From Mesodorylaimus sp. YZB2_4 (taxonomy: Eukaryota; Nematoda; Enoplea; Dorylaimida; Dorylaimidae), in assembly GCA_030248295.1 (NCBI GenBank), contig JASANH010000053.1, positions 186,001-250,000 on the forward strand: a DNA stretch of 64,000 nt, read 5' to 3'. Shown here piece after piece: positions 28,641 through 55,440 of this stretch; the first letter of the stretch is position 1, and each line of letters opens with the position of its first letter. Under the pieces are notes generated by a model. It searched no databases and had not been told where the DNA came from. It saw only the letters and a program-made list of their open reading frames with translations. The translations under genes and the position numbers were made by a program.

Positions 28641-28752
28641 GAGTTTGAGAAAAACGCAGCGGAAGGACAACGGTTGCTATGATATTTGTTTGATTACAGG
28701 CAGACAAGAGCGGAAGATTGATCACTCAACAGTCGCCTATTCTTTCACGAGA

Positions 28753-29643
28753 ATGTATTACTTCCAAAGCCACGACGTGTCGCATCCAGCTTTTTACATC
28801 ACAGCCATTTCGTATGGTATTATTGGAGCACTCGGTTTGCCAGGAAACCTTTGTCTAATGTACATAATTTTGTCCAACTGGAGGACAAGGAAATCACACG
28901 AGTGGCTGATATTTGTTCTGAATCTAAGCGATTTTCTGTTCTGCCTTACCAACGTGGCTATCGAGGGGCCGTTCAATATAAATTTTTTAACTGCGGAGTG
29001 TAAAGTGGCGGGGGCAATCTGTTATTTTTTGGGTGGACTATCACTTTATATTCCGCCAGTGATAGCCTATAATCGATATTTGTCCATGTACAAGTATAAA
29101 AGGAGTCTGAAAGTATTCACAAATCGGAAGGTATTTTTAATCTGCTTGTCGATCATAGCTTTTAATTTTTGCTGGCTGGCACCATTTATCGCGCGCGATA
29201 GCCTTGGTCTGGATGACCTAGGCGTGTGTGGTGTACGAGTCACAGATCAGCTACTGGCCATCGTCATGTGTCTCGTGCTTACTACAAACGTCATCGTGTG
29301 TTTACTACTTGTATATTTCTCTATTTGTGTGGTTATCAAGATCAGAAATCACAAAAAACGAATTACATCAAATATGCTGACTCGCTTGGTTTCAGATTCG
29401 AAAGAAATTATATCGGTTATAATATTAATTTCGATCATACCATTATTCACTCAAATACCATCCATTGCATTAAAATTTCTGCACATGTTTATTCCTCCTT
29501 CGAGTCCCTGGCTAACTTGCTCATTAAGTGCTGCATTTCCCATGACCGCTGCGCTCAATGCTTATATAACAATGTATGGGATCAAAGCGTATCGGAAGAA
29601 AATTAGCAAGCTTTTTCGAAGTTCTCGTGAAAATTGGCACTAA
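28753..29643 (+). CDS. Rhodopsin-class G protein-coupled receptor (orphan)
   Basis: A single-exon frame; the start at 28753 gives 296 residues (the frame is open 36 codons further up). Seven hydrophobic segments are visible. TM1 has LGLPGNLCLM (Asn 1.50), TM2 has LNLSDFLF (Asp 2.50), TM3 starts after a conserved Cys (TAECKVAG) and ends IAYNRYLSMY, an NRY version of DRY. TM4 has FNFCWLAPF, and TM7 has ALNAYITMYG in place of NPxxY. A short basic tail (KAYRKKISKLF) follows and probably forms helix 8. Intronless or intron-poor receptors with degenerate DRY and NPxxY are common among nematode chemoreceptor-like families such as srsx. The ligand is unknown. Its neighbours give no functional hint. 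Confidence 0.85.
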   Translation: MYYFQSHDVSHPAFYITAISYGIIGALGLPGNLCLMYIILSNWRTRKSHEWLIFVLNLSDFLFCLTNVAIEGPFNINFLTAECKVAGAICYFLGGLSLYIPPVIAYNRYLSMYKYKRSLKVFTNRKVFLICLSIIAFNFCWLAPFIARDSLGLDDLGVCGVRVTDQLLAIVMCLVLTTNVIVCLLLVYFSICVVIKIRNHKKRITSNMLTRLVSDSKEIISVIILISIIPLFTQIPSIALKFLHMFIPPSSPWLTCSLSAAFPMTAALNAYITMYGIKAYRKKISKLFRSSRENWH

Positions 29644-33496: not shown

Positions 33497-34682
33497 ATGG
33501 CCGTGAAAATCGCCGCTGGTGTCGCCACCATCTTCAGCATCTTCACTTTGTTGGGGTGCCTGATCTTCGTGCCCATGCTATGGAACAAAGTGTCGGACAT
33601 CCAATCCATGGTTCAAAATGATATCGACGAGTTCAATGTCAGTCGATATAGTCTTGAGATAACGTTTTGGACCACCTGAAGTTTTGATTCTTATAGGTGA
33701 TCGCTGAAGACGCATGGAAGGAAATTTTGGTTATCAAAACTACCGGAACACCAGTCGCTCCTAAACCAAGGCAAGCTAGGCAAGCGGCAGCTACTTGCAG
33801 TAAGTTATATGTTTGAGTGACCGAACAAGAACAATTATTTGTACTCCATGTTTTTCAGACTGCAATGCCAACAACAAATGTCCTCCAGGCCCGGCTGGTC
33901 CACCTGGAGAGCCTGGTGTTGAAGGGTAAATGTTTTAGTGACCTGTATTCGAGACAAGCCTCCATAGACGCTTCTCTGTTTTAGTATTCCTGGCGATGCT
34001 GGCTCGCCTGGTCTCCCTGGTCTGCCTGGCAATTACCCGCCGGTGCATTTGACCGCTGATGGAAAATGTCTCTGGTGCCCTTATGGCCCTCCAGGCCCGC
34101 CTGGCCCACCTGGACCAGCTGGACCAACTGTATGTTTCGCCCTTCATCCCCCAGACTGTTTGCTTTACTCATGTGGCCTCGCGTTTCAGGGACCAAAGGG
34201 CGCTGCGGGAACTCCAGGGAGCCCTGGGAAGCCTGGCGTTGGAGGACCACCCGGACCGCCTGGTGCCAAGGGCAACGACGGAGCCCCCGGCAAACAAGGT
34301 CCAGCTGGCGACCCTGGAGCGAGCGCTGTTGGCGGACAAAAGGGCGATCCTGGCCCCGCTGGTACCAAGGGCGAACCAGGCCCACCTGGACCAAACGCCG
34401 AGAAGGGACCACCAGGAAAGAATGGTGCTCCAGGCCCAGCTGGCCCACCCGGCCTTGCTGGTCCGCCAGGTGAGCTCGATTCAACAGCTATGGTGTTTTG
34501 GGGTTTATCACCTAATTTTTGCAGGCCAACCTGGAGGGAAAGGTACTCCCGGCCCAGTCGGCCCCGCTGGTCCTCCTGGCAAGGACGCTCAATACTGCTC
34601 ATGCCCCAAGCGCACCAAGGCGGCCAAAGCCAAAGCCAAAGCCAAGGCCAAGGCAAAGGCCAAGGCCAAAGCCAAGGCGTAA
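33497..34682 (+). CDS. Nematode-type cuticle collagen with Lys-Ala tail
   Basis: Six exons join in phase: 33497-33637, 33697-33799, 33859-33925, 33985-34129, 34190-34469 and 34525-34682; 297 residues, the usual size for the family. Residues 1-34 include a hydrophobic membrane/signal stretch ([20 protein letters not shown]) followed by the Trp/Val/Asp-rich N-terminal domain of nematode cuticle collagens. RQAR at about residues 71-74 fits the subtilisin-like processing site. Next come a CNCNANNKC cluster, a short Gly-X-Y block, a Cys-containing interruption (GKCLWCPYG), a main Gly-X-Y domain of about 40 triplets rich in GPPGPP, and a final CSC pair. The last 20 or so residues are a near-perfect Lys-Ala alternation. 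Such collagens are secreted, crosslinked and form the cuticle. The tail is unusual and could serve crosslinking. Confidence 0.93.
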
Positions 34683-37079
34683 GAAGTACACAAAACTCGA
34701 TTATCTGGTCGACACCATTCGTTTATCCTTCCCTTTTGTTATCACTGTTATTGCATCTTGTTATCCCTGCTCCTGCCCACCGCCAAAAATGATAAGTCAA
34801 GAATTTTTTCCTTTTTCTGTTGGTTTAGTGCTTTCCTGAAAACAAGTAAACGCTTTTGTTATTGTTGTGAGTATCGTCTTTACACATCGTTGGCACCGGA
34901 AATCGATGGGCGGAACCATTCTTTAAATCATTACCTCGCGGAGGTAAAGCAGTGAAGCTAGATCGCGAGGATTTCAGTCATCTTGTCTTAGTCTTTTCCA
35001 GGGTGCATTTAAGTTGAACATCCAGACGTCGCTGAAAACTATGGGCTCTCGCAGCTACTAGGTTTTCCATTTCCACTCGCTTATTGCTAGGTCAAAAGTA
35101 ATCGGCAAAAACAACCCATGTTTACTCGAGTCCCTGGACGCTAAATTTTCGAGGACAAAGTCGAGTGATCTTACATTTCAAACTAAGAGAAACTTTGAAT
35201 AGATTCTCCAAAAACTAATTTTTTTAAAACAAGCTCTAGGGATCCCTCAGAAGGGAACAACTCGAATACGAACAATGTTATCGCCGCACGGTTGCTACGT
35301 TAGGCAGCGATCTATAAGGCGTTTAAAAAAGTATTATTTTGTGTCAACTCTTTGCTGTTTCTGGGGAACTTTGTGTCAACATAGCCGACAATTTTCAAAT
35401 TCCCGCGTACTTTCGAGTGTGCCTATGGCAAGAGTGCGCGAAGCCTATGCGTTAATCTACCTAGTGTTAACGGGTTCAAAAATAAGACCAAGAAACCCTT
35501 CCATCCATCAATGTATGATTATGATCAGCGTTTGCTTTGCAAAGCGAAACATCAGCGAGCTTGAGCCAGAGTTGGTTCAGGCTCTCTAAAAACTGTCTCG
35601 TGGTTTGTTCTGGTCCTGGCTCAGCAACGAAAGCTTCTTCGGCCTGGCCTACAAGGCATGAGGCGTGAGTAACGTTAAATGCTACGATCAGAAGTCGTTA
35701 GAGGAGTCACTGGCCAAGTTTTTAATGTTGGGGTTACAGAGAAGGAACCTAGCAAGTTTATGTTGTTTTTTATTCGAACCCCCATTCCAAATCACTAACG
35801 TGAGCTCGCCCCCCCCCCCCGTGACGCACCATACCCAAAAGTAGCGGAGAACATGGTGTCGCAAGAGAGGCCGTGGCGAAGCCGAGCCCTTTTTGCAGTG
35901 GGAATGATTGTGAGATCACAAGAGGAAACCATCATACATTTCGCCTCTCCAAGTCTCTTTGTGATAATCGGTTCATTTGTTTTTTGATCGTCTTTTGGTT
36001 TCTCTCATGTTTGTTCGTTTTGTCCTGCATGGCCATGTACTCTTTTTTTATACATGCCGTAATGGTGCAGACCTAAGTTCGCAACGCTACTGCGCTCGGC
36101 AGACGGTGGTACAGTATGCGTCAGGTGGTTGTTTCGTATGAATACGCTTGATCTCTTGGCTCTCGATTACTTCTTCTGGGCATACTTTAAAGCTAAAGTA
36201 CAAAAGAAATCCATTTGCTTTGAACAATGCGTGGTGAAACCCAGATATCATCTATTGATGGGAAAGCATTGTTGAAGCGGTTGGCGAAAAGCATCGCTTA
36301 TCGCTTTTTGGTGAAAAAGTCCCAGATAAAAGAGGTTTACATCCAATTTGCTATTCAGCAAACCAACAAACGACAGTTTCACCGCCAAGTTAGAAATGCC
36401 TTGAAGAGCAGTCGTAGCTCGCTATCATCGTGACATCGTGATCGTGCTCGGATCACGATGTCCATGACTGAGCACAAAGTTATTGATTGATCACCACTTT
36501 AAGGGTTGATCACAATTTTTTTCAATAACTAATTGGGGGTCGATCACAGAATTCTTGTGATGGTGGGCTGATGACGTGATGATGGACGGATCACATGGGC
36601 ATGGTTTCATCACATTGTCCATGACTGATCACCTGATGGGGCCAATCACAATATCTGTGACTGACCGCCTAAACCATAATCGATCACAAGATCGTGGGCT
36701 GATCACATAACCGCCCTTTGATCACGATGTCCGTGTCTGTTTACCTGACCTAATTGAGCGATCAAACTTTAGTCAAATATGTAGTCTGATCACAGCGTTT
36801 CTGGCTACACGCACGAATAAGGAACTAATAGCTGTTTAGGGTCTGATCACCAAGATCTCAGCTGGACAGCCCCATCCAAGACTTATCACTCATCTGTTAT
36901 GCTTCTCTTCCTATGCGTAGGTAGCGCGGTTCTGTGAAAAAAGGCTGATTTTCAGCATTTTTTTGAAGCTCCCGGCTGGTTTCTGTGTACCTGCGCATCA
37001 CGGCACGGTTTCGAGGCGCGTTGAAAAAAGTTCAGGCTGACTTCTGATAGTGTTGAACATTATAACTTGCGCTTACCAT
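34683..37079. other. Intergenic region with GATCAC-rich repeat block
   Basis: No supported gene. A C-homopolymer lies at about 35810-35820. A 68-codon basic open frame at 36227-36433 has no recognisable homology. The block 36430-36870 is described separately. Confidence 0.5.
36430..36870. repeat. Degenerate tandem block of TGATCAC words
   Basis: The word GATCAC occurs about eleven times in about 420 bp, mostly as TGATCAC or CGATCAC. Between occurrences there are recurring phrases such as GATGTCC and CATGACTGA. Spacing varies from about 18 to 60 bp. It looks like an old satellite or an array of binding sites. Confidence 0.7.
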
Positions 37080-37330
37080 TACTGTAGGACACAAACCATG
37101 ATTCTAACTGTGCAAACTGCTTCCTGGACCAGACGCCGACCTCCTCGGACGATGCTGGGTGGGCTGTTAAGGCTGTCCCTTTAATGCTCGACAGCCGATA
37201 CCGCCTGCAATACTCTTTTGGGCTCCATTTCTGCACTCAAAGCACATCGACTGTACCGGGTGCCGGCTTGCAATGTCAGCGAGTTGACATTATGACGACT
37301 TCCAAGATCGTTCTGCGTAGATATTGCGAA
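37080..37330. repeat. Decayed SINE-related segment (copy 3)
   Basis: It shares with SINE copies 1 and 2 the order CTGGACCAGA...GACCTCCTCGGACGATG, CTCCATTTCTGCACTC and CTTGCAATGTCAGCGAG. No intact tRNA boxes remain. The rest of 37330-38390 holds a poly-C tract of about 25 bp (about 37616-37640) and no supported gene. Confidence 0.5.
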
Positions 37331-38392
37331 TCCAACTTTTAGACATTCGTGTCTTTGGGAGACAAGTTAGGTGAAGTGCAAAATATGATTCTATTCCCCG
37401 CTGTACAGTATAACTAACAATTGTACATTTTTTTGGTGCTAACCTGCTTTCATTGGTTACCAACTACAGTAGACATATACGTGCAGTATTTCAACGGCTC
37501 GATCAGCAAGACTGTCACAATAGAGAGAAATAACTGAAAAAGGTCTGACAATAAGCAACATGCGGAGCAACCTCGAAAACGTGGGCAGCTTCTTTGAATG
37601 ATTTTCGACTGCCCCTACCCCCCCCCCCCCCCCCCCCCCCAATTTTTTATTCAATAGCTCTAGACTATGATCAATTTTTCCATGTCTTTTGGCTGGGCGA
37701 TTCAGTCGCAAATAGCCACCTATTGTGTTGTGGAAGCGCTCGAGGCCCCTGCCCACTGCAATTTGTACCTACAGGTGGTAATTTGTTACCTACAGTCACA
37801 CTTTTGACGAAGATGGTAGCATCGATCTTGGCATCTTTGAAATGTGTAGCAATTTCACAAAAAGATCTGTTTCAGCTGAAAATTCAGCGACGCGCGCTCG
37901 AAAAAGATACACAAGACCAGCAGAGAATGCCCATAGCTGGAAAATGGCCGTGTCCTACTTGCTAGCACTCTGGACCACTCGGCTCTGTTGTAGACTGTAC
38001 CAATCAATGGGCGATTTATACGCAGTTCACTCGTTAGTCCACTACGCTGTACTCGTGGGACTCAAGGAGGCACTCTCGCCCTAGGCAGGAGAACGGGGCA
38101 TTATACCGGCAATTGTCTGGTCCAGGATTTAGCCATGCATACCTCGCGTAAGAGGAAAACCAGCCGACCTCAACCTCTTGCCCCCTTGTCTTCCTTCCTG
38201 GTCTTGCTCCCGCCCCTATTAAGAAGGATGACAAATACATAGCAGCGCGGACTGCGCGAAACAGTGTGCGCCCACCAAACAGTAGTTATAATTAGCGGCT
38301 ATGCATAATGTATTACCTGTACTCTTATGTACTTGACCTTTGTGTACAATAACAGAAGCCTTTTGGTGACCTTGTCTTACTTCTAGCCTCGA

Positions 38393-38440
38393 CGCCATGC
38401 TGTCATAGTTACTGCCCTAAGTAACTATGACAGCATGGCG
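38393..38440. repeat. Perfect inverted repeat (hairpin), 21-bp arms
   Basis: Arms 38393-38413 and 38420-38440 are exact reverse complements around the 6-nt loop GCCCTA. It ends 90 bp upstream of the start codon of the channel-mucin gene and could sit in its promoter or 5' leader. Confidence 0.9.
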
Positions 38441-38530
38441 TAGTGTGGGCGTAGGCTGTATCCCCCACTGAGCTATGAAAGAGAAGGGAAAGCCTACAGT
38501 AGTACAGTCAGCTGAATATGTTGTAGAGAA

Positions 38531-39152
38531 ATGGAGAGTCTGAAGGAAGACTTGTCATATTCCTCCTATCGAACACTTTTTTCTGCGATCTCATCGAAAA
38601 ATGTTTCTTCGAGAATCTTAGGGGCGCTAGTCATTTTGGGTTGCGTGGCTGCTTTGGCTGGTTTCGTAGTTCAGTCGGTCCTATTCTTCCTGACGTATCC
38701 TGTTGGAACAGCCATAAAAGTAACGAGTTTTTGGGACTTTTGATTATTCGTGCGCTATCTGAAAAGGACAAGATAAATTGCCGCTTTATCTCTCATTTCA
38801 TATGCCGTTTTATACAGGGCACAGCAAGCCATCATCCCCAAGGGGAACTCGGGCCTTGCTTATACATATATGGGCGTAGACAAGCACAGTAATCCATTTT
38901 AGACAAGGCCTATAATCTGCGAACCTAAAGTTTTTCACCCCAACTGTTGACTCTTGCACAGTACAAGCATGCCGGGGGAGTTGAGCGCAGTTGGGTCTTT
39001 TGCACATGTGCCCATCCTACAAGATATTCACAACGCCTTTACATCTTTAGCTCAAGCCTGGACCGATCGAATTCCCGTCTGTCTCGGCATGCAATTTGAA
39101 TCCATACAAGGTCTCCGCTCTGAAAGAAAAGGCGCCTGAAATTTATCACGCT
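38531..39152 (+). CDS. Exons 1-2: DEG/ENaC N-terminus, TM1 and post-TM1 motif
   Basis: Exon 1 (38531-38719) encodes a short cytosolic segment, a hydrophobic helix (about GALVILGCVAALAGFVVQSV) and LFFLTYPVGTAIK, the family's TM1 ending. Exon 2 (39051-39152) opens directly with LKPGPIEFPSVSACNLNPYK, the counterpart of the family's FPAVTICNxNPYK, then VSALKEKAPEIYHA. Both exons are phase 0. Where most members have His-Gly in the cytosolic gating motif, this protein has SSYRTLFSAI. Confidence 0.85.
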
Positions 39153-42100
39153 GTAAGTCTGTATAATCGACCGTTTGCGAATAAGGTTCCCCTTCGAATA
39201 CCCCTATCTAACCTGCATTGAAAAGTTTGGGGTTGTCGCTCTTGAAAACTGGTTCTGGGTAAGCCAACGATAGAGGAATATTCGAGTGGGAACCCAAATA
39301 GACAGTAGGTCCTAAATGAGGGCATCTTCGACGGCAACGCTGGAGGCAATGCAGTCTGGTGACATGTAGAGCGCGGAAAGACATTATTCTCCGCGAAAGC
39401 TATTTCTATTTGAAACACGTAGAGACCCTGTGCTGTCGGGCTGAGGGCCTCACGTAGGGATTATACGCTTAGTAAATTGCTGAAAAATTTGGCCTCCAAA
39501 AAATACGAGCGAAAAAGCGCAGGATTTGTACGAGTATAAGTCCGGTGAGGTTTTATACCAAGAATCTGCCTTGAGGGGAGGTATTATTTTTCTTCCTATA
39601 TAGACACTGCTCTTTAGATGTAGGGGTCGTATACAGGTCCTTTTTACTTTATCCAGTGTGGCCTGGGTCCGTCTGGATATGGAAAAGTCACCCTGAGAAC
39701 CTGACGCGAACAAGAACCGCTTTTTTCAGAAATTGGCAGTGAAAACAGGGTCAATTTCGGAGACACGTTTGTAGACAAGAATATCCTCAATCAGACTGCC
39801 ACTTTTTTGCCCTTACTGCATGTTGACAATTTTTCAAGAAGTTTTCGGCTTACATCCTAAGAGTGCGAAAATTTTATGAAAATATGGAAACACAATAAAA
39901 GGTAGAAACTGTACCATGCGATGCGGCACAGTGGTCTCTACAAAGTACTATAGCCATTATCGATCAATAATCACGGGGAATTTCGAAAACATGCGTTTTT
40001 CATGGGGGGCCCTCTCGTGCGACAGGGTGGGTTCCTGATATAAGCTCAGTCATGGAAGGGCTTCCCAAAAACTACTAGCTTCGGGCTCACTTTCCCACCA
40101 TGTTACTCGCCCCTTAGATCGTGTAACAACTGTATGCGTATGCTGGTCATGGTCGCCGGAGTGCGTTTTCTGCTTCAGCTTAAACAGTACAGCAAATACC
40201 TAATCGATGAACACACTGGCGACGGGAAGAAGCGAGCGACTCCGGAAATAGGAAACAAGCTTGGCTTCATACATGGGTCCACGGTCGGTACCCAGGTCGA
40301 TCAATCGGACGCCTCACTACGCAGTAGAATGCGCAGAAATGTTATCAGACGTATGGACAGGGTCTTATTCTATTTTAAAATATTGCATTTTAAAAAATTT
40401 TAGCTCCTGTCCCAGACCACATCGGCACGACTTTCTATACCACCTTCCCTCAGAACGACGCTTCTACGGGTACTTTGAAGCTGATGATTGCAACGACACA
40501 TGCTACGCCATTCACTGTGGCCATCACCACACGAGACAACAGCGTAACACAGAACTTGGTAATCGATAACACGATGGTCTATACGGTAAACTTTCCAAAA
40601 GAGTCTGTGGGAATCAAGTTGACGGCTCCCTATGACTTCATGGTCTACAATATGAATTACAAAATTGGCTCTGCAGAAGGGTTTCTCGTGTTACCATTGG
40701 ATGTGCTAGGCACGGATTACATTGTAATGGGCATCGAAGATCCCCAAGGAAGGAATCAAATACATATTGTTGCCACTGCCGACGGCACGTCTATTACTGT
40801 CTCCCTGAGTGGTGGGGTCACTCAGTCATTCTTGATGAATGAGACGGACATCATCAAGTTGATGAATAGGACTGAGTACACTGGAACACAGATAACTTCA
40901 GACAAGCCAGTAGCTGTAATCTCAAGCAGTATAACCACAACATATCCTTATGGTTGCTCTTATCGCGATCACATGGTTGAGCAAGTGAGTTGGTGCAAGG
41001 TAGCCAGCCATAAAGTACACTTTTCTTTTTTTTTCTCGCTGTTAGCTAACATCGACAGATAAGTGGGGTATGCGCTTCGCCCTGGTTCCGATCGATCACA
41101 CGTGTACGGCCGTGCCGTCCTGCTGCCACAATAAAACGTTCTGCTCCGGTTGTTACGAAATGTTCAAAGTAGTCGCTTATGCGGATGGCACAGTCGTGAC
41201 TCGAACTGGGAGCGTGTCAAACGAAACATTCACATTAAATGCCAGAGAGTGGAGAACAGTTCTTACTATGCAGGATGAATTTTCATATCTGCAATCGAGC
41301 AAACCCTTGCAAGTGGCCCAGTTCATGACAGGAACGGAGTACCAAGACCAAGGTGAGCTAGAACTGTTTGGGTTTGTTCCGAAAGCACAGTTAGGGATTT
41401 TCCCCAAGGAGCGATGCGGAGTATGTCGGTATTTTGGCCAGTTCAGCCAAAATTAGTACATTCGTCCAGATCGATTCTCAATGAGTTGGGCAACAGACAG
41501 CAGCAGGCCGCGGAATATACTCGTATATGTTTTGCTACCCTTGAGTTTCGTTTGGAGCAAACCTGCTGCAGGCTCCAATTGCAGCCGGGAAAAAGCTAAC
41601 AAAACATTCGAAACCGTGTTTCTTAGCGCTCCTCAAATTCTTGATAGTGCTACGGCGAGTCGGTGGCTTTACCAGCACAAGAAACCTGGTTTGGAAAAGT
41701 TAGCAGTAAAGGTTATAAAGACGCGATGTTCAAATGAGAGATAAAGCAATTTATTACATATTGCACATACAGTACTCTAAATATAGCCCTAGTTAGAGTA
41801 GCACCCAGACATAACGGCTAGCAGAAACAGCGGGGTTGGTTTTCAGCATGGGTATTTTGTCAGTCTTTTCTGAGCAGCCAGCGCAGCGGCTATCTGTACT
41901 GCGATCTCCAGGGCTAAGAATAGCACAGGACAGAATCTTGCGAGCAAGGATTTACAGCCTGATTTTTGAACCTTTTTCAGTTTCAGATGAGCTTAAGAAC
42001 CCCTGCCATTAAAACTGTCCCGATCGCGGCATATGACTTAACACGGATATGGATGAGAGTTGGGGTCTTTGATGCCCCACCCAACAGTAGTTCATGGCTG

Positions 42101-45100
42101 CAGTATGACAGCTCTATGTCGCATAAGTGGGGCTGGGCGGTATTTCAAAAAATTGGTTAAATTTGTAGTTGAAAATTCAGGCGCCTAAACAAAAACGTTG
42201 GTTTCTCCATAAATACACAAGATAGCATGACGTTTTTAAAAAAACCTCGAAAAGAGAATGCGCTAAAACTCCTTTTTTTAAATTACGAAATTACGAAAAC
42301 TCGACTTTTGCCGGGAATTTTAAAAAATTCAAAAATTGGTCAAGTTTGTCAGGATGGCGTTCCTGTGTCGCTGCAGATAGTGTAATGAGACTTTAATCAG
42401 AGGTAGCACATCATGTCCTGTACACGCGATAAAATTTTCAGCCTTGGAATCGAACTCTAAGGAGAGTTATAGCTCCTGAAATTGACCCCACTTTTCGAAA
42501 TTTTGCCATTTTCACGCATGTTCAGGAAAGTGTAAAGAAGTGCCAATGTAAAGCTAATTTGAAAATATGTGTGGTTTGTGACGATGAGTAGAATTTTATC
42601 CCATCATTTATACGATATTGGCTCTGCTGGCCTATTTTTAGCATTAGCGATACATTCTTGTGCCAACAACAAGTAGCCGATGACAGTCAGATCAAATATG
42701 ATTTTCTAGCCCGTTCTAACCATTGTAAAGAGGGCCTCAGAGAAGCTACAATATATTGTTAGTCCAATGATGCTATATTGCGGCAGATTTCTCATGCTAA
42801 ATCAAGCCGCATGCGCGGGTAAATGATAATATGCGTACTGACAAAATAGTACTAACAAAACTGTTTGTCGTCTGCTAATTGGGATTTGTGAATCTGGTGA
42901 GTGGCTTGAGCAGCGAGTAGGCGAGTGATATTTCATGGATTTATTGCATTAAAAGACAATAATTTGGTATTATTTTCTTGGAACTCATCAGCGCGAAATT
43001 TATGATGTTGCTATGATAATGCAAGCAAAGTTGCGGAAGCATCGCCGTGCAAAGGAAAGGGTGCACAGGATCCCAGAGGCAGAATTATAGGCTGAGGCTG
43101 ATCGAGCATATGACGAGCGCAAGAGAATGGAACATGTTCAACTCAGGCTAGATAGTTGGTTGAAGATTGACCCCTTTCCTGCAGCGAGCCAAGCCACTGA
43201 AGCCGGCGGTAAGAAAGACTCACGATCAGTGACACCAACGGAGACAGATGGCTTGCTCATGAGGATTATGACAACGCTAAACTAGCAAGGCGTGCAGCGA
43301 TTTCAGAGAAGAGCTGCGCATAAAGCGAATAATGATTATGGGTCGATCAGTTCCATTGGCTGCTCGACAATCGCATTGGCAGTCATGGTGTGCACAGATC
43401 GTCCTCATGCGCAGGTAACGCGGAAATTTGTACAATCACATCTGTGAAACACATCGAGGATCGCACACTGGAGCAGCGCCGATTTTGCGACCCAGAAGAG
43501 AAAAATTTTTCTGAAAGGCAGCTTCGCGTCTCGCCTAGCGCTAGACAAAATTCCCATACAGAGCGTCAGCGTTGGAGGGCACCCAGCCACCATCCACTTA
43601 TGCAGTAGGTAGCCTATCTGTTTTCTTCGGTGAAGTACACGCGGCACTATGCGGAGCATGGAGGGCGTGTATATTTTCAAAGAAAACAGGTTACACACGT
43701 ACTCGACCGCACTTATGAATTATGCAATCGACTACTGCCAACTATCGTGCTGCAGCCCCCCCCCCCCGAACGACAAGAGCATGAAATTGTGATGGGGCTC
43801 GGTAATGAGGTGCCGCATTTATCACGATTTGAGCCTGGGAGGTGCAAACATTTTGAAGGAGTAATTCTTCTAACTCATGGCTGTAATCAGATGATCATAA
43901 CTTCGCACACATGTTCCAGTACCTTTCCCGATTGTAAAAAAATTTGAAATTCCTCCGCATACAAAAATATATAATTATAATATATATATATATATATAAT
44001 ATAATAATATGAGTCTAAGCTTTCAAAAATTTTTCGAATCTCTGGAGTATTTTTTGCAGTTTTAGCCCCCTTTTAGCGCTCTTTGTGTTCTTTGGGGGTG
44101 CGCCAAAAAAATTGATTTTTCAAAAAGCGAGGCGACTTTAGGGAGCTGCAACTCCCTACAAGCGTGTATACTGTAGCTGATGGTAAAAAAGGCCAGCAGA
44201 GCGAATATGGCATAGCTGATGAGATAAAGTTCTACTCGTCGTCACAAGCCATACATATTTTCAAATTAGCTTTACATTGGCACTTCTTTACACTTTTCTG
44301 AACATGCGTGAAAATAGCAAAATTGCGAAAAGTGGGGTCAATTTCATGAGCTATAACTCTCCTTAGAGTCCGATTCCAAGGCTGAAAATTTTATCGCGTG
44401 TACAGGACATGATGTGCTACCTCTGGTTGAAGTCTCATTGAAATATCTGGAGCGACACAGGAACGCCATCCTACCAAACTTGACCAATTTTTGAATTTTT
44501 AAAATTCTCGCCAAAATTTGAGTTTTTGTGATTTCGTAATTTTAAAAAATAGAGTTTGTAGCGCATTCTCTTCTCGACGTTTTAAAAACTAGAAAGTCGT
44601 GTTATCTTGAGTATTTATGGAGAAACCAACGTTTTTGTTTAGGCGCCTGAATTTTAAACTACAAATTTAGCCAATTTTTTGAAATTCCGCCCAGCCCCAC
44701 TTATGCGACATTGAGCTGTCATACTGCAGCCATGGACTACTGTTGGGTGGGGCATCGAATACCCCAACTTTCATCCATATCCGAGAGAAGTCATATGCCG
44801 CGATCATGACAATTTTGACGGCAGGGGTTCTTAAAATAATCACTTCACGCTTAATTTTCTCCTTAAGCTTTTTTAAAACGAACGACAAAGCCTCGATCAT
44901 AGCATTGACTTTGAATTAAATCAGAAACAGATCTTTCAGAGCCAACTTGCTATATATGTGAAACCTTCTTTTTTCAGCAAGCTACTCGATTCCCGGCGAC
45001 CCTTCATTACTAATGATTCCTCCAACCGATAGCTTCAGAAATTTATTTTCTTTCGTATCTTGTGATCCGGCCTTCAGTTCACACTACATGACCATTGTGA

Positions 45101-48100
45101 TCAATGGAAATCAATCTGCGGGTTTACTCCTCGACAATCAGACCTTCCTCGGTTCAACCCAAGGCCACTTGATCCCAAATACATCACTCACAGCCTACCG
45201 CCACAAGTTGAACTGCTCCGCTGCTGTTAAATCCTTCGTGATATCGCATGTGGATGTCAGCGCACTGTTCAGCGTTTTAGCTTACGGCATAAAAAAAGCC
45301 GCGTCATACGCATACATGACTGGCGGCTACTTCGGCAAGGGCTCGTTTTTTTGCAGTGCAACGCCTGATTCTGCCCCTCCCAACGGCTTAGACAATGACT
45401 GTGATGGGTGGGTTGATGAAGAACTTCGCAATTTTATCGATGACGACAATGATGGTCTCATTGACGAGGATCTTGCCGCAATGATCCCACTAATCAAAGC
45501 CCTCGATTATGAAATAACGTCTTGCAACTTGTCGACAGCACCAACACCCGTCAACAACTCTGAGCCAGATTTCCCCCAGACCTTTGTAGATCCGAGATGC
45601 ACCCCTTACAACCTGACTTATGTCGATGTTAGCAATGACAGAACCAACTGCAAAATGGCAGTCAGCCGTCTCTGGCACCTCAGAGATGTGTGTGGGAATA
45701 TCGGAGATAATGTCACTCAATTCATCATCATAGCAGTGCCTCCCGACACTTACGCAGCGCCACCGACAGCATACCTTAAAACGTCTGCTGACCTAACAAA
45801 TCTGAAGTTGACTGGAGCTCCCAGCATTGTACCATCTTGTGACACGACAGCTCCGTGGACGTGGACATACACTGATCAGTTTGTCAATCAGACATACGTC
45901 AATCGAACCTGGGAAGTTGTGTCTGCATGCGTAAATGCGAGCACATTGCTACATCAAGATATTATTATAGGTAGGGCAATGCTTTTGTGGACATCTATTC
46001 ATGCAGATTCAAAAAAAGTTTTCTTCTCAGAGATTTATACAACGACGACTAGCTCTACCACTTCTGCATCTACAACAGTTTCAGCCTCAACAATTAACAC
46101 AACCACCACTTCAGCAGCCGCAACAGCTGCCACAGGTGCTGTCAGTATAATACCAACCACCACTCCCATTTCAACGACAACAACAGTCCCTGCAACACTT
46201 TTAACAACTACCATCTCTAATAATAGTGTTTCAACTGATGGTACCACTTCATCAGCACAAACAATAATTACCCTTCCTACCAGTTCCCTTTCAACCAGCT
46301 TTCCTAGTTCAGCATCCACAACAGCTGTCATTACAGCCGCAGGTACAATATCAACCAACAGTCCGATTTCATCTACCACAGCGGCCACAACGATGCTCGC
46401 GACAACTGTGGTCCCTGTCAGTAGTGCTTCAATCAGCATCACTACCACGGCATCCAAAGCAATGATCTCAACAGCTGCTACCCTTCCCTTAATCACGGCT
46501 TCAGCCAGCATTGCCAGCTCAGCAGTCACAACAAGCGTAAGAGCAACAACTGGTACAAGTACTATTGCAACGACCGGTCCCATTTCGACTACTGCAGCGG
46601 CTAAAACAATGCTCGCATCAACTGCTCCCCCTATCAGTAGTGCTTCAACCGGTATCACTACTTCAACAATGGTCTCAAAAACTGCTACCCTTCTCACCGG
46701 TACTGCTTCAACCAGCACTTCCAGCTCAGCATCCACAGCAGCTGCCATTACAGCCGCATATACAGTTTCAACAAGAGGTCCAATTTCAACAACTGCACCG
46801 GCCACAACGACGTCCGCGACAACTGTCGTCCCTGTCAGTAGTGCTTCAATCAGCATCACTGCCACGGCATTCAAAGCAATGATCTCAACAACTGCTCCCC
46901 CTATCAGTAATGCTTCAACCAGTATCACTACTTCAGTAACGGTTTCACCAGCTACTATCCTTCCCACCGGTACCGCTTCAACCAGCACTCCCAGTTCAGC
47001 AACCACAGCAGTGAGCACAGCGACCACCATCCCTGCCACTATTCTTTCAACAAGCACCATTGTCCTTGCCCCAGCACCAGTCACTTCTGCAGGCTCTACG
47101 TCGTCCATTGCTTCGAGTTCTAGCAACAGCCCAACTTCAAGCAGCACAGCTGCTCTGACCTATTCATCCACAAGTGCTACCAGCACAGACGCGATCGCAT
47201 CTTCAGCCCTAAGGCCATCAGTGTCTCCGGCGATCGCTATTCCCACACTCATATCTATAACAAATAACCCAAAGCCAACCGTTTCAGAGGTCTCCAGCGC
47301 CTCTAGCGCAGTCGTCCCCTCGACTGCTCTTTCTGCTAGGCCCAATGGCTCCAGTGCGGGGGCTACTTCTCTTCTAATCATGTCATCGTCGCCATTTCCA
47401 TCCGCCGCCATCAGCACCCTCATCTCACAGTCAGCTATTCCAACGAACTTGACATCAATGGTTACTCAATTTCCGACGTCAGAACATTCTCTCAGGTCAG
47501 CAAGTTCTGTAACAGCAACAACATATAACCCCTCCTCATCGTCGAACGCTAGAGTGACAACGCCATTGGCAGCAAGCACCAGCACAATGCCCGTTTCAAC
47601 TTTTGTCCTGAAACAGGCCTCGATCAATCCAACATCAAGCCCACTCATAGCAACATTATTTCTAGCTGCGTCACAACTGTCACCGTATGGGGCACCATTG
47701 ACAGCAGCTTTAACGACCACCGCACCTATTGGCTTAATGCCCAGCCCATCCATCTCCACACCTATCGCGACGGCTATTGCCGCCTCTGCACCAACTGCAA
47801 CCGTGGATAGAACAGCTAACACAGAGCCGGTACTCGCAAGTTCGATATCCAGTGCCGCTGCAAACAGCATAGCATCTACAGCCCTTGCGTCACCTTCTCG
47901 TTCAATCCCTGTCTTATCTCTGGCTGCAATTGCGTCTACTGACGCCACAACTGACGTGTCGGAAAAGACCACTAGCGCTACCCCTAGCGCTGCTTTCAGC
48001 CCAACAAGCACCGCTCTACCGTCTATCAAAATGTCAAGCAGTGTTGCTGTGGCTACAGAATCCGCAACAAGTACCATTGCTTCAGTTTTATCCTCAGTGG

Positions 48101-51100
48101 TCACCCCTGTCATCGCGCACACAAATAAATTATTGCTGGGCACTACCGCCAACATAGCCTCTTCTCCTGATTTGGTCATAAGCACCCCGAATACCAACGC
48201 CGCCACCTCAGGCACAGTTGCTGTTTCAGATTCATCAGCACCTTCAAGCACAAGTCAGCAAGAAACGACTAAAACGGGCTATGAACCCACCTCAAACAGT
48301 TCAGCTCCTGTACTTCCCGCTTCCTCATCCGCAGCGCTGTCGTCTTCAGGCATGTCAGAGGCACAAACAACTACACCCATGCCAGGGTCTGCGCTAACAG
48401 CATCTGTGACGGCATCATCATCCTCTACTGTTGCCGCTGCAGCCAGTACGACGAGCACTGCCCTCCCGCCACCAACAGTAACTAACACCACGGAATCACT
48501 GTTACAGCCACAAAACCCATCAACAGTCCACCCACAACAGCAACAACCCAGTACCGGGGAAACCATACCCGCTCCAAGTACTATCAGTCCAGATACGACC
48601 ATCCATAAGGCAGGCACAATGGGGATCCTAGCAGGCAACACATCCATCGGAGCCGCAACATCAACAAGCGCAAATGCAATAAGTGCCCAAAATGTGCAGA
48701 CGTTAGAGACCAGTAGGTCGACAGGGAGCCCTTGGACTGACCAAAACGAGCATACCTTGGCTCCACATGCAACAATGTCTGTAATGTCTAGTCCTTGGGG
48801 ACTACTGACCCCCAATCCTGCACTGACCCAGAGCGGCATTGATATGACCACTCGAGAACTTGGCACGTGGAGAAAGCGAACGCATGGGCCAATAGGAAAG
48901 TTGCAGGTAAAACCAGGAGTGGCCCAAACTTCAGCCACGATTCCCAATAGTTCGCAGCAAGCAAGCCTGGTGACCAGCCCTGAGACTAATTCGACGGAAG
49001 TGCCGACTGACGGGTACGATGAGACCAACAATGCTTCTACTCGTGCATTCATTGGAAAAGAATCTGGTCAGACCCTCCCGCTTCCAGACTCGGTAGAGCA
49101 TGCTTTCAAAAGCTCGTCATTAGCACATAACGAAGGTTCTCTCAGCACAGCAGCAACAAGCCTGAGAGTTGGTACAAAGCTCATATCAACACCAGGGAAA
49201 ATAAAATTGCAAGTCTTCGCTGGAACCGTCTCGACCATTGGCCAATCATCTCCTTACCCGCTGACAATGCGGGAAGTGACGAATCCCAGATCGACCCCAG
49301 CAGAACTATCCACAGACCCTTCTTCGGAATCACCAAAACCTGACTCTAAATTTTCTGCCACAAGCCAAACGGATAGGAAACATAAGCCGACCTCAATGAT
49401 TCTAAATTTGCAAGTGACTGATGGCATAGCTTCAGTTGCACAAGAAACGTTGCCAGGCATGCAAACCCTGTTTTCTAATGTTGCAGAGGAACTAGGCTTC
49501 CAACAACTTACCGTAAGTTCAGCGTCGTTTAGCATAGAACATTTCGCCACAGAAACAAAGGCAGTACTTACTACAGACACCCCTCAAATGGCAAAGAGAC
49601 ATAGAGCAACCTCAGATGCAGTATATTTGCAAATCCAAGCTGGAATGGTGGCAGCAAATGACTCATCATCTACCACTGATATGACAACGAGCAAACCAGC
49701 TGCAGCGGGCTTCACTGAAACCACAGCAACAAAGTCACAGATTGAAAAATCACCCACACCAAGGATGCCGCACGAATTGCTTTTCAGTGCAGCCCTTCAA
49801 GGTTCGTCGCAAGGCGCCGAGCCAGTGCAGCTAGCAGCTCCCGTGAGGACTAGCTCACCATCCAGGCGACTCGAGCAAACTGATGAACCGTCTGCTACAA
49901 GCATTCTGGCTGCGATAGAGAAAAGAACTGAAACAAATAAAAGGGTGGCCGTTTCAAAACCTCCAACTGAAGGTTTTCGGAATCCTCGTTCAACACCGGC
50001 ATCAGTCGCATCGTGGCTGCCCCTGGATAGCTTCCTCGGCTCAGCCTCACCAGAATCCGCAACCAAGACATCTTTAAAATCGATACGAAAGCGAACAAAG
50101 CCCACGCGCCCACAGATCGATCCAAATAAAGGCACTGCACTGGCTCACAAAGCTAGTGCGTACACAACGGCAACGGCAGCGCTAGAGGACAACTTTCCCC
50201 CCGACCTTGCAACTGCGTCTGATACGCCCCTAGGACAACTGTTGGGAATGGAGACACCTGAGGCTGTAGTCACTAGACCTAGCGTAAGGGCGTATGCTGC
50301 ATCCGCCCAGAGGCCCGATGATGCAAAATCTGATGCATCAGGATTTGGAGGCAATGCCATTTCGGACCCCACTGCTTCTTCTATTAAGCGTTCAACAGGA
50401 ATTAGTCAGAAAGTCAAACGTGTGTCAGGCGAGGCAGACCTGATGTCAACTACATATTCGACCGATCAGTTCCCTGCACCAGAAACACCCAACGCTGTGA
50501 CATCAAGGCGGCAATCAGGAGTCCCTAACCAAGCCACGAGCTTATTGACAGCAGACATGTTCTCTGTTAGCACCAATCCCTCACACGAAAATCTTGCAGC
50601 TCAAGGAGAGGCTCTGGACTACTTTACAACTGCCAAACGAGGCCTTCAAAATCGAATGACAAAGCGGCCACTGACAATAAGTTCTTCGAATGCGGATTCA
50701 GGCCTTGGGCAACTTTTGGGAACAGGGATGCCAGAGACTACAGTCACTACGCCAAGCATAACGGCCTATGTTGCATCTGCGCAGAGACCTGATGGCGGAA
50801 AATCTGATGCACCAAAGTCAGGAAGCAATGCCATTTCGGACGGCCAAGCACCGCTGACCGTACCCTCTGCCATTAGCTTATCGGTAGCACCGCACGCACC
50901 AGATGATCCAAATGCAGACGCAACAGATCCTCTTACAGATGGATCATACATAAATCGTACCACAAAAAGCCCAGACCTAGAATTCCTGAGCGCTAACAAG
51001 CAGCTATCAACCAGGCCTAACGACACCCCTGACGAATCTCAAGCCAGTGCAATAGATGGAACTGGTCGAGACATGACATCCACTGATGATGCCCCTGAAT

Positions 51101-52827
51101 CTGGAGAAATCAGCAATAGTCAGAGTGCGTGCAAGAATAGTTTCGACGATCGCATAGGTGACGTCCTGAACGAGATCACGATGGAGGTGACTCATCTAGG
51201 AATTGGCAACGACTCTATTCCTGTGGTAAGTTAGGATAGATCATTTCCAACCTTGCAGACACGATCATATGCTCATCATGAAGAGACCAGCCTGCAGCAG
51301 CGAAGATTCCCATTTTAGCCCCCACAAGGCCAAGATCTCTTGGTATGGTCGAGTCAAATGCAAGATGCCCTTGCTTATTTGATGAAACAGTACGACCCTG
51401 ATGGATCAATAGTCTCTTCACTTGGCTATACAGCAGACGAATTCATATTTTGGTGTCGATATGCTGGTCAGAAATGCTCTCTTGCTCAGTATGCATTTTT
51501 GTTGGCTGTTCAGCCTCGTCACATCGCTAAACATGTTATTTCTAGGCAAGTGAAGATGTTTCATGATCCAAATTATGGAAACTGTTTCACATTCAATTGG
51601 AACCCGGGCTCCCATTTCGCCACTCGATCTGGACAAAGATTGGGGCTGCAGGTCATTTTCAACGCACCTTCCGATGACTACTTGCCGTTCACTCTGCCAG
51701 GCGGCTTCGTGTTGGCCTTTCATCGACCGGACGAAGAACCCATGATGCAGTCCATCGGCATCACAGGCTCTACAGGTGTGCACTACATTTATGGTGTTTC
51801 GAAGGTAAGCTGAATTAGATTCCTGACAACGCACAAAGACGTCGATTAGTTTTAAGCTGGAAACCTCAAAATTGGGCGAGCCCTATTCTCCGTGCGCACC
51901 AAAACAAGTAGACAGCGTCGAGAATTTTTATGTGAACAAGTCCTACACAGTTGAGGTAAGCTTTTGTGCTCCTAAATACCTGACTAAATTTCTCACATAG
52001 CGAAACCGATTTTAGACCTGCCTGGCGACTTATTATCAAAAATTGATCCTGAACCGATGCAAATGCGGAGATCCTCGATACCAATTGCCCGCTGAATCCA
52101 GTTACTGCAATATAACTCAAAGTAGACCATTTTTCTTTTCTACATCCTCCGCTCTATGACCTCATTCGTCCTAGAACCATGTGTGGACAAGGCAGCTACG
52201 GATGTTTTCGATCAAGTATCAATTGAAGCTTCAAACTGTAAAGCTGCATGCCGGTAAGTTGTGTTATAATGCAAAAAAAAAACTAGGGTTCTGTTCTACT
52301 TCTTTAGCGCGACTGATTTTCAAATTGGGGAAACAAAAGCAAAATGGCCCGCTGACAGTTTTTCAGTGAGTGTAATGAGTTTAGAAAAACTAAGCTGCTC
52401 AAAAGACTTTGCTAGCTAATAATATACTGTTCAATCCTTCACTGCAGCCTCCAAAATGTGATCAGATGACAGGAAACGAGTTGGAAATTTGCAGAAAAAA
52501 ATTCAGGCAAGACCCCGCATCGTGATTCAGGACACCTTACGAGCTGTAGCGAAATACTATCTTTGTAGAACCAGCTACAGCCGGGTGGACGTTTATTTCA
52601 ATTCAATGCTTGAAATTATCTTGGAGGAATATGCGGAGTTTTCGGTATGATGACAGACCTGTCACTGCAGGATTGCTCAGGCAGTGATGAGCGTTTTGTT
52701 TTAGCTTCTGCAACTTCTGTCGGATATATTCGCCAATGTGGGGTTATGGCTGGGTTGCTGCACCATTTCAGTCTTCGAATTGATTGTATTCCCCGTGTTG
52801 GCGATAATGCAGGGCGTACGAGTATGA
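38531..52827 (+). CDS. DEG/ENaC-family channel with IgGFc-like and giant mucin insert
   Basis: Thirteen exons can be joined in phase: 38531-38719, 39051-39152, 40179-40287 (or -40350), 40404-40984, 41046-41352, 44978-51225, 51319-51804, 51857-51955, 52016-52121, 52175-52253, 52308-52365, 52495-52644 (or 52448-52644) and 52705-52827; about 2,878 residues. Domains: TM1 at about 29-52 with LTYPVGTAIK; post-TM1 FPSVSACNLNPYK; an IgGFc-binding-like domain at about 134-560; acidic metal-binding-like loops at about 568-596; mucin-like Ser/Thr/Ala-rich region at about 783-2440; then the DEG/ENaC ectodomain (LGYTADEF, YGNCFTFN, KWPADSF, RVDVYF) and TM2 (SDIFANVGLWLGCC). The cytosolic tail is about ten residues. 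DEG/ENaC subunits form trimeric sodium or acid/mechano-gated channels. The usual N-terminal His-Gly gating motif and GxS filter are altered. Evidence for a single gene: no start codon or signal peptide at the IgGFc or second channel parts, and phase continuity throughout. Not proven without RNA. Confidence 0.78.
40179..41352 (+). CDS. Exons 3-5: IgGFc-binding-protein-like domain
   Basis: Exon 3 (40179-40287 or 40350) is a charged linker; the longer form adds an RSRMRR furin-like site. Exon 4 (40404-40984) contains GTTFYTTFPQND, GTLKLMIATTHATPFTVAI, VLPLDVLGTDYIV and ending DHMVEQ. Exon 5 (41046-41352) continues LTSTDKWGMRFALVPI and ends MTGTEYQDQ before a phase-1 donor. EQLxxxxxWGxxFxxxP and the closing GDPSLLMIPP at the start of exon 6 are diagnostic of the domain at the N-terminus of vertebrate IgGFc-binding protein (FCGBP), usually found in secreted mucus and adhesion proteins. 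Confidence 0.82.
41353..44977 (+). other. 3.6-kb intron holding a long inverted-repeat element
   Basis: Arms at about 41990-42645 and 44178-44838 are reverse complements. Shared landmarks include AACCCCTGCC/GGCAGGGGTT, GCCCCACCCAACAGTAG and ACGTTGGTTTCTCCATAAAT and their complements. The roughly 1.5-kb centre includes an AT palindrome (about 43968-44010), a C-tract (about 43757) and a decayed coding-like stretch at 43010-43320 (DRAYDERKRMEHVQ). No transposase can be recognised. Confidence 0.75.
44978..51225 (+). CDS. Exon 6: end of IgGFc-like domain, acidic loops and giant mucin region
   Basis: This is a single 6,248-nt exon. It starts in phase 1 (acceptor TTTTTTCAG) with SYSIPGDPSLLMIPPTDSF, closing the IgGFc-like domain. 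Next come two acidic loops, DNDCDGWVDEE and DDDNDGLIDED, of the kind that bind calcium, and two segments with W-x-D/S-x-C-x-N-x...Q-x-I spacing that recall HYR-type repeats. From about 46038 the sequence is mostly Ser, Thr, Ala, Pro and Val with loose Thr/Ser-rich repeats, a mucin-type O-glycosylation substrate. From about 48800 it becomes less repetitive with internally repeated phrases near 50210-50360 and 50690-50850. It ends GNDSIPV at a strong donor (GTG|GTAAGT), phase 0. A possible 60-nt intron (45971-46030) would not change the frame. Confidence 0.85.
51319..52827 (+). CDS. Exons 7-13: DEG/ENaC ectodomain and TM2
   Basis: In order: LGYTADEFIFWCRYAGQKCS and DPNYGNCFTFN (51319-51804); GEPYSPCAPK...FYVNKSYTVE (51857-51955); CLATYYQKLILNRCKCGDPR (52016-52121); PCVDKAATDVFD (52175-52253); ATDFQIGETKAKWPADSFS (52308-52365); RVDVYFNSM (ends 52644); LLQLLSDIFANVGLWLGCC and the rest of TM2 (52705-52827). 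The Cys pattern and motif order are those of DEG/ENaC channels. The selectivity filter, normally Gly-x-Ser, reads Gly-Cys-Cys, and the usual Gly-Gly before GLWLG is Phe-Ala. Exon 12 has two possible acceptors: 52495 keeps the frame; 52448 adds CDQMTGNELEIC, which suits the family, but needs one more A in an A7 run at about 52495-52501. Confidence 0.85.
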
Positions 52828-54204: not shown

Positions 54205-54611
54205 CAAGTATGGGCAGTGGATAGGCGGGGTAACCCCCTCCTGTTGGGCCGGCCAGGACATTGAACCCTTCTTCTCGAACCCCCCCCCCCCCAGGTCCAG
54301 CAGGAAGAAAGAAAAGGAGGGAAGCAAACGCGATCAAATTGCATGTGGGCAGGACCAAGACCTGACCTGACTGACCAAGCCCTGGCCTCCGACACAGGCC
54401 AATTGCCCAACCAGCACACTGTACAGTACTGTTTCTAAACAGTCACAACTCACTCACTTACTTGACACAGACACAACTCACTCACTTGACTCGACCCGAT
54501 CCTGACCTATCTCACACGCGATTAGATCAGGCTTGGGCGATCTGATCTGATCTGCTCTCTACCCCTTTCCCAAAACCCCTCACCTAACCCAGCCGACCTT
54601 CCCCATACTTG
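54205..54611. mobile_element. MITE-like element, copy 2 (reverse orientation)
   Basis: It is bounded by CAAGTATGGG (54205-54214) and CCCATACTTG (54602-54611). The interior is the reverse complement of the 7585-7940 element, including the C-tract, CCAGGTCCAGCAGGAAG, the GATCTGATCTGATCTG run and AACCCAGC. It is longer by about 50 bp, mainly through a duplicated CACTCACTTGACxC phrase (about 54440-54500). Confidence 0.75.
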
Positions 54612-55440
54612 TTCGACGCTTTAGTGAAATACGCAGTACAGCTTTATCACGGAGCCAACTCGATGGGCCAAGAGAGAAGCGAGAAACTGGCGCCACTGAT
54701 GGAGTTGCCATGCGTCTTCAAGCCCTCGAAATACGCCGTGATAGCCTTTTCCGCGAATCCCTCAATCATGTCTACAGCACCGTGTGCCAGACAATCAAGG
54801 AACTCCAAGAAATTGATTTGGTCCTCGCCCACGCGGAGCCAACCTTGATCGCCAGACGACTTCTCAACAACAGTCAAATTATGGCGCGGATGTTCTGCCA
54901 GTTTCTTGAAGTGTGGCTGTGCAGCCCAGTTGACCAGTTCGAGTTCTGCAAGATGGGAAATCGATGCACGGAATGGATCCCTGTGAACTGTACAGTACGA
55001 GGCACATCTTCAATTGGATACATGAATCCCAAAACATCCATTATTTATGCAAATTGTGCCCCCTTTAATTGTGATTTAGCCCATGAAAACTACATCAGTG
55101 ATCCCAACCGACTTATTGGTTTACATCGCACACAACGGGATCGTCAAGCCGTTTGCCGGACAATTAATCAAGCATGCACTGCACTCTTCCAAGACAACAG
55201 AATACGTTGACTTTACATCAGTTATTCACAAGCCGATACAGTTGTATACCCAGAGAGAGCTACGAGCACATAGCAGTCTAAATGACCTGTTCGCCACACT
55301 GAATCGGCGAGCAGAAATCTTACAACAGTTGGCACAAATAGCACATGATGTTCCTGAATTCAAGGACGCACAGGCCATTATCGACGCTGTCAGCTGCCTG
55401 ACACCGTGGGACCTCAACAGCCATTGGACCAGCAAGGTCT
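54612..55440 (+). pseudogene. Degenerate coding-like segment, retroelement-associated
   Basis: Two overlapping frames (54710-55210 and 55083-55440) together look like one decayed protein: a Cys-containing, possibly extracellular part with several Cys and Asn-x-Ser/Thr sites, followed in the other frame by a heptad-like helical part. The layout is loosely reminiscent of an envelope-like retroelement product, but no fusion peptide or membrane anchor is visible and I do not recognise the family. It is interrupted by at least one frameshift and truncated by a SINE. Treat it as unassigned. Confidence 0.3.

Follow-up and report, generated by a model that had tools for sequence, protein, structure and literature searches.

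A predicted DEG/ENaC subunit of a dorylaimid nematode with an IgGFc-binding domain and a giant mucin-type stalk between finger helices 1 and 2

At positions 38531-52827 of a 64,000-nucleotide stretch of the genome of the nematode Mesodorylaimus sp. YZB2_4 (assembly GCA_030248295.1, contig JASANH010000053.1, positions 186,001 to 250,000 of the forward strand; hereafter the window, to which coordinates refer), exons for the two ends of a DEG/ENaC channel subunit flank an IgGFc-binding-like domain and a giant Ser/Thr-rich reading frame. Does this locus encode one channel subunit with an enormous insert, or is it a plain DEG/ENaC gene with an 11-kb intron in which a separate gene for a secreted IgGFc-mucin lies in the same orientation? 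Exon 2 (ending at 39152) can be joined in frame to exon 6 (starting at 51319), and for this reason nested genes were the rival reading that we considered seriously first. Our analysis indicates that the locus is very probably a single fused DEG/ENaC gene.

The overall layout proposed in the initial annotation was borne out. The first transmembrane segment (TM1) and the FPSVSACNLNPYK motif lie at 38531-39152, and the rest of the DEG/ENaC ectodomain with the second transmembrane segment (TM2) lies 12 kb away at 51319-52827. Our gene model has 15 exons (Table 1) with 8,625 coding bases including the stop codon, and would encode 2,874 residues in a single frame with no frame break. The predicted protein order is TM1, finger helix 1, the IgGFc-binding domain, a metal-loop/HYR-like module, a mucin of about 1,730 residues, the remaining DEG/ENaC ectodomain and TM2. 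The insert occupies residues 156-2513 of the product (2,358 residues). Without the insert and exon 2b, the channel exons match the Pfam ASC family (PF00858) over profile positions 13-455 of 455 (191.7 bits, E 3e-56). With the insert present the match splits into 13-108 and 143-455, the break placing the insert between finger helix 1 and helix 2. The profile search suggested for the joined protein matched both expected families, and the IgGFc_binding domain (PF17517) was found between the channel halves as claimed, at residues 247-554 (E 2e-49, 168.9 bits against a gathering score of 25.6). Comparison of this IgGFc region with the PDB gave no match at E 0.1.

The splice junctions had been said to agree in phase throughout. 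This holds for 41352 to 44978 (phases 1/1) and 51225 to 51319 (0/0), but not for a direct splice from 39152 to 40404, which we rejected: the phase is 0 at the end of exon 2 but 1 at the start of the IgGFc exon, within which the joined frame meets a stop after 24 codons. A missed exon, here called 2b (40179-40350, phase 0 in and 1 out), restores the frame between the two. Its acceptor scores 12.1 bits, and only 0.24% of the AGs in the window reach 12 or more. Read from 40179 (LKQYSKYLIDEH...), the exon carries the ASC match of the 5' part of the gene onward from profile position 86 to 107, and with its first 35 codons included the full channel scores 197.0 bits against ASC, up from 191.7. A weak alignment to gammaENaC spans the boundary of exons 2 and 2b and continues through helix 1. 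Exon 2b also aligns without indels to the closest copy of the locus in the same genome, hereafter the sister (C1:1.96-1.98 Mb, its main blocks 75-87% identical in DNA), where the same 15 exons give 2,830 residues. Furthermore, the phase-1 donor is conserved and a similar exon is present at 10 further loci. Codon usage of exon 2b is only suggestive, being matched by 5.6% of random stretches. Donors at 40287, 40295 and 40323, the last initially favoured on codon usage, were dropped because their GT is absent in the sister.

In order to see whether the arrangement recurs, we used the same nematode assembly (145 Mb, 1,067 contigs), whose nematode origin shows in 133 matches to the N-terminus of nematode cuticle collagens, and grouped its 42 genome-wide IgGFc matches, by our own judgement, into 20 clusters. 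Thirteen are flanked on the same strand by exon 2-like sequence upstream and by later exons of the channel downstream, namely the window, C1:1.97 Mb, C1:2.50 Mb, C114, C387, C79, C11 and six on C233; at one of these, C233:64k, the downstream channel match is the TM2 exon only. The clusters on C14, C175, C151, C41, C18, C257 and C49 have no channel exons among the nearby matches listed, and these 7 of 20 are a point in favour of nested genes. We then compared the window with six paralogous loci taken whole (P1, P1b, P11, P79, P114 and P387) and five C233 copies (a, b, d, e and f), leaving out C233:64k. Exons 1, 2, 3 and 4, the start of exon 5, and exons 6, 7 and 8 are colinear in all six whole paralogous loci, with amino-acid identities to the window, exon by exon, of 29% to 97%; outside the sister, exons 9-12 were recovered only in part. 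Genes of the predicted TM1-IgGFc-stalk-channel arrangement make up a conserved multigene family of this nematode.

Two observations concern the wider channel complement of this genome. C233 carries a tandem array of about six to seven such channel genes, and the DEG/ENaC expansion as a whole is large, with at least 114 ASC exon matches.

The boundaries of the insert are conserved as well. Exon 3 is entered in phase 1 at 12 of 12 loci, and exon 5b exits to exon 6 in phase 0 at 7 of 7. In the window and all six whole paralogues, exon 2b is entered in phase 0, and its phase-1 donor lies 4-6 residues past an RxRR motif; C233 a, b and f show the same RxRR-then-phase-1-donor pattern with the donor GTAAGT. 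As for the end of the insert, the claim that it lacks its own stop did not hold in the literal sense. The mucin frame stops directly after its donor, at a TAG (51232-51234) that is the third intron codon, as a nested gene would have it. However, this stop is common to the window and the sister only. In P114 a TAA follows one codon later, in P1b, P79 and P11 the frame stops after 7, 9 and 13 codons, and in P387 it stays open into exon 6. Being unconserved beyond the closest copy, the stop appears to be intronic rather than a conserved gene end. Just 84 nucleotides separate it from the next channel exon, and neither AATAAA nor ATTAAA occurs on the plus strand between 50126 and 53612. The other part of the same claim stood, as a search of 36500-40352 gave no start exon that encodes a signal-peptide-like segment and ends in a phase-1 donor. 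For comparison, a phase-0 donor as good as that of exon 5 is present at the ends of 10 of 699 other frames; an acceptor as good as that of exon 6 lies within 50-100 nucleotides of 55 of 1,722 points. Each of these signals (start exon, AATAAA or ATTAAA, donor and acceptor) is mild evidence against a nested gene.

Comparison with the sister gave ratios of non-synonymous to synonymous substitution (dN/dS) of 0.28 for the ASC exons (without exon 11), 0.30 for exon 2b, 0.32 for the IgGFc exons and 0.72 for the mucin. Selection on the channel, exon 2b and the IgGFc domain is purifying, and all parts show protein-level constraint, weakest on the mucin. Conservation is highest in the channel part, at 87% amino-acid identity. 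Collectively, the recurrent order, the conserved phases and the unconserved stop, comparative evidence that we regard as decisive, support the initial proposal of one fused channel carrying about 2,400 extra residues. Separately, synonymous divergence from the sister is lower in the mucin than in the other parts, 0.13 in the mucin exon compared with 0.39 in the IgGFc exons, as if the copies had exchanged sequence there.

What does the insert consist of? The IgGFc domain is followed by an Asp-rich loop, GLDNDCDGWVDEELRNFIDDDNDGLIDEDL, that is MopE-like (E 0.009, under the Pfam cut-off), and by an HYR-like module with four cysteines (HYR_4C, E 6e-4, likewise under the cut-off). The 6.2-kb mucin-type exon described at first proved right as to its giant Ser/Thr-rich region and wrong as to its structure. 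We rejected a single exon 5 in favour of 44978-45970 and 46031-51225, the latter of 5,195 nucleotides, split by a 60-nucleotide intron which is open in the window and stop-bearing in the sister. The stalk has 1,729 residues, with 17.6% Ser, 17.0% Thr, 13.5% Ala, 8.0% Pro and 0.1% Cys, and its predicted sequence fits the mucin type in being long, rich in Ser, Thr and Pro and poor in Cys. No EGF family was found in Pfam scans of the parts of the window gene, and no VWD or TIL family in a Pfam scan at E up to 1. The P11 stalk is not a mucin: its open frame of 4,016 residues (C11:1109941-1121988) contains 26 DxDCDG motifs, mostly at 143-residue spacing, and this repeat array matches HYR_4C at 1.7e-8 (3,332 residues scanned). 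Since the stalk is a mucin or, in P11, a set of 143-residue repeats, what is retained may be its reach and not any one sequence.

The channel part departs from its family at two sites. At the TM2 filter position the window has GCC, and five paralogues have GCC, GCC, GFC, GIC and GLG, so that five of six read G-x-C; in other DEG/ENaC loci of the same genome the filter reads GAS, GAS and GAG, as located by pattern in 3 of 8 loci scanned. The HG motif before TM1 is absent from 12 of 12 aligned exons 1, the window having RT opposite the HG of ASIC5; exon 1 starts with ATG at 11 of the 12 loci, the window included. The G/S-x-S filter and the HG motif, neither of which the window subunit has, are each common but not universal in DEG/ENaC proteins, and membership stands despite the altered filter because the family is defined by homology. 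From the lack of the usual HG motif and the G-x-C in place of G/S-x-S, the subunit probably functions as part of a heterotrimer; it may depend on partner subunits or be non-conducting altogether. When the last 35 residues of exon 5b are added, the ASC score changes by +2.3 if exon 2b is absent and by -1.5 if it is present, and shifts of opposite sign are uninformative on fusion.

The position of the insert is the basis for a proposal on how such a subunit might work. ENaC-type channels are gated by proteolysis, and convertases recognise RxRR. Of the 12 loci examined, 11 carry an RxRR motif shortly before exon 2b ends, compared with 1-9% of shuffled sequences for each, a count in which the C233 a, b, d and f exons are not independent since they were chosen by that motif. 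Exon 2b was chosen by similarity to the window in P1, P114, P387 and P79 and by position in P1b and P11. A first basic site lies 21-48 residues ahead of RxRR in 8 of 11 when a loose pattern is used. In excerpts of two papers, the GRIP domain of ENaC is 'located between alpha1 and alpha2', is described as ENaC-only, and its double cleavage gates the channel (PMC6197857, PMC8791634). We consider cleavage of the nematode protein at RxRR moderately likely. With this motif just ahead of it, the insert, which had been described as part of the extracellular loop, does lie between helix 1 and helix 2 but may be freed at its N-terminus, a leash and not a loop.

The steps that we propose are as follows. 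A proprotein convertase would cut at RxRR, and the IgGFc head would become the free end of a long glycosylated arm with its base fixed to finger helix 2. If extended, the stalk would by our estimate reach several tenths of a micrometre. Head and stalk could bind to cuticle matrix, glycocalyx or mucus, and tension on the arm or its occupancy could alter the finger-thumb contact, hence the gate, in the way that the gate of ENaC responds when its GRIP tract is removed. A role of the insert as a tether or matrix-sensing gate is a reasonable but tentative suggestion; the specific version in which the RxRR cut frees a leash of about 2,400 residues with the IgGFc head, borne on finger helix 2 at the GRIP site, and arm tension or binding gates the pore is somewhat more speculative. 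Taken whole, a fused subunit of about 2,874 residues with an RxRR-freed arm and a matrix attachment affecting the gate is probably the best explanation of the locus.

Several observations weigh against this explanation or parts of it. The stalk of P1b is short, with about 1 kb from the IgGFc-side match to exon 6; in P11 the start codon and the TM2 exon were not found; one C233 ASC gene (exons 1 and 2 at 49k, exon 6 at 40.9k) has no IgGFc match; and exon 2b was not found in C233e, while the C233d donor is unclear. In the window, the 40350 donor of exon 2b is weak (2.2 bits compared with 3.9 for an upstream GT at 40283), and a channel-only splice at 40283 would give a normal 498-residue channel, a possible isoform. 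The first basic site, GKKR, is not a full furin motif. A signal-peptide start exon is likewise lacking in 14 of 32 control stretches, and since such absence is common its lack here is mild evidence. The 3' end of the channel itself also goes without AATAAA or ATTAAA for 785 nucleotides. Finally, the HG absence and the altered filter cast doubt on conduction.

All alternatives except nested genes are variants within the fused gene and not mutually exclusive with it. The one that survives best holds that the protein is a membrane-anchored mucin, fused but non-conducting, whose channel part is an anchor while mucin and IgGFc head build a glycocalyx. This would suit the missing HG motif and the G-x-C or GLG filters, and an excerpt of PMC10424705, which spells out the EGAS name, reports that in oocytes the EGAS proteins of C. 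elegans, expressed alone, produced currents no larger than those of controls. However, the conservation of the channel part goes beyond the needs of an anchor and TM2 is intact, so we regard this as unlikely. Slightly less likely is a two-product precursor, in which the RxRR cut and a second cut near the stalk end would release a soluble IgGFc-mucin and leave an activated channel. The RxRR motif ahead of the insert suits such a precursor, yet the three stalk frames read to the end (window, P79 and P11) contain no R-x-K/R-R site and therefore no obvious second cut for the same protease.

Alternative splicing, yielding a plain channel as well as the fused form by way of the phase-0 donor at 40283 to exon 6, is improbable in our judgement. 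The GT at 40283 (GTCGGT) is retained in the sister, its phase fits exon 6 and its 3.9 bits exceed the score of the 40350 donor. On the other side, it begins GTC, unlike the GTA, GTG or GC of the model's other donors, its conservation is known from the sister alone, and simple skipping would break the frame because the block of exons 3-5 is not a multiple of three. As for nested genes, although the channel exons alone make a complete DEG/ENaC of 498 residues (197.0 bits, profile 13-455), the entry and exit phases and donor sites conserved across diverged loci, the short stretch from stop to exon 6, the missing start exon and the RxRR conserved just ahead of the boundary leave this reading highly improbable.

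The complete gene model is given in Table 1. Exon 11 as 52495-52644 was rejected because it contains a stop in the sister copy, and a GC-AG intron at 52507-52568 was used instead; the rejected form has a slightly higher Pfam score (154.5 compared with 152.0 bits, the queries differing also by one leading residue). Intron 4 contains a transposon-like insertion (41986..44841) with long inverted terminal repeats, whose arms of 320 and 249 nucleotides are 92% and 91% complementary. The insertion is missing from the sister, whose intron there is 376 nucleotides long.

Table 1. Exons of the predicted channel gene, followed by donor sequences at the two insert boundaries (a slash marks the exon end).
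Feature	Position	Strand	Content and phase	Support
Exon 1	38531..38719	+	Start codon, cytosolic N-terminus, TM1; phase 0 out	ASC profile; exon 1 aligned at 12 loci
Exon 2	39051..39152	+	FPSVSACNLNPYK motif; phase 0 in and out	ASC profile; 97% amino-acid identity in sister
Exon 2b	40179..40350	+	Remainder of finger helix 1, GKKR basic site and RMRR site; phase 0 in, 1 out	
Exon 3	40404..40984	+	IgGFc-binding domain, first part; phase 1 in	PF17517
Exon 4	41046..41352	+	IgGFc-binding domain, middle; phase 0 in, 1 out	PF17517
Exon 5a	44978..45970	+	IgGFc domain end, Asp-rich MopE-like loop, HYR-like four-Cys module; phase 1 in and out	
Exon 5b	46031..51225	+	Mucin-type stalk, giant and Ser/Thr-rich (5,195 nt); phase 1 in, 0 out	
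Exon 6	51319..51804	+	Finger helix 2 onward, palm; phase 0 in and out	ASC profile 143-455 starts here; paralogues
Exon 7	51857..51955	+		
Exon 8	52016..52121	+	Cys-rich thumb region	
Exon 9	52175..52253	+		
Exon 10	52308..52365	+		
Exon 11a	52448..52506	+	Followed by GC-AG intron	
Exon 11b	52569..52644	+	Pre-TM2	Same phase-2 acceptor readable in P114, P387, P79
Exon 12	52705..52827	+	TM2 with G-C-C at filter position, stop codon	
Exon 2b donor, window	40350		TCAGAC/GTATGG	
Exon 2b donors, paralogues			P1 TCGGGG/GTAGGG; P114 GTCAAG/GTATGA; P387 TACAGA/GTAAGT; P79 TTCAAG/GTATGA; P1b CGTCAG/GTATTC; P11 AAGCGA/GTAAGT	
Exon 5b donors			Window GTAAGT; P1 GTGAGT; P114 GTAAGT; P387 GTGAGA; P79 GTAAGT; P1b GTAAGT; P11 GTAAGT	

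Elsewhere in the window we noted a Cys-rich frame at 14769-15329 with a Galaxin_repeat match (7e-15), the Galaxin family being named after coral skeleton proteins, a rhodopsin-family GPCR exon at 28630-29640 (5e-13) and a collagen at 33968-34789 (3e-14). Just 3' of the channel gene, at 54551-55207, a weak match to a Monjiviricetes fusion glycoprotein (9e-5, under the cut-off) marks a possible endogenous viral remnant, and a reverse transcriptase frame at 61561-62808 (RVT_1, E 9e-28) is perhaps LINE-like. Rfam gave nothing at gathering scores in the window. A search for SL1 RNA gave no match and is uninformative.

How does the predicted subunit compare with known systems? EGAS proteins combine an EGF part with an ASC domain, and they were aptly named in the initial annotation as the precedent for an adhesion-type extra part in a nematode DEG/ENaC subunit. 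The resemblance does not extend to the EGF domain, which was not found here; in its place are an IgGFc head, a giant mucin or repeat stalk and RxRR sites. Vertebrate alpha and gamma ENaC likewise carry extra sequence between the two finger helices, the GRIP tract, whose polybasic cleavage sites may have counterparts in the nematode protein. That tract is short, whereas the insert described here has 2,358 residues with folded domains, and its cleavage is a prediction. FCGBP and other IgGFc-binding proteins share the PF17517 domain. FCGBP proper has VWD-TIL repeats after its N-terminal domain; the nematode protein, whose likeness to it is one of sequence, differs in lacking VWD and TIL matches and in its membrane channel context. 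The MEC-4/MEC-10 degenerin touch channels are thought to be gated through links to the extracellular matrix. There the link is a separate protein, whereas here a candidate link would be built into the subunit. In the largely open-access literature on IgGFc, EGAS, ENaC and mucins we found no report of this architecture, and an earlier annotation of such a protein is possible.

It has long been asked how the extracellular matrix pulls on DEG/ENaC channels, because the tether has been hard to identify. The present locus offers a candidate tether within the subunit, at the very site where proteolysis is known to gate ENaC, and it adds an invertebrate DEG/ENaC with polybasic sites between helix 1 and helix 2. 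The natural variants of the family, with a mucin of about 1,700 residues, a stalk of about 1 kb and an array of 26 repeat motifs, allow the length and stiffness of a tether to be tested against gating. If our reading is true, a mechanical tether would be genetically built into a DEG/ENaC subunit.

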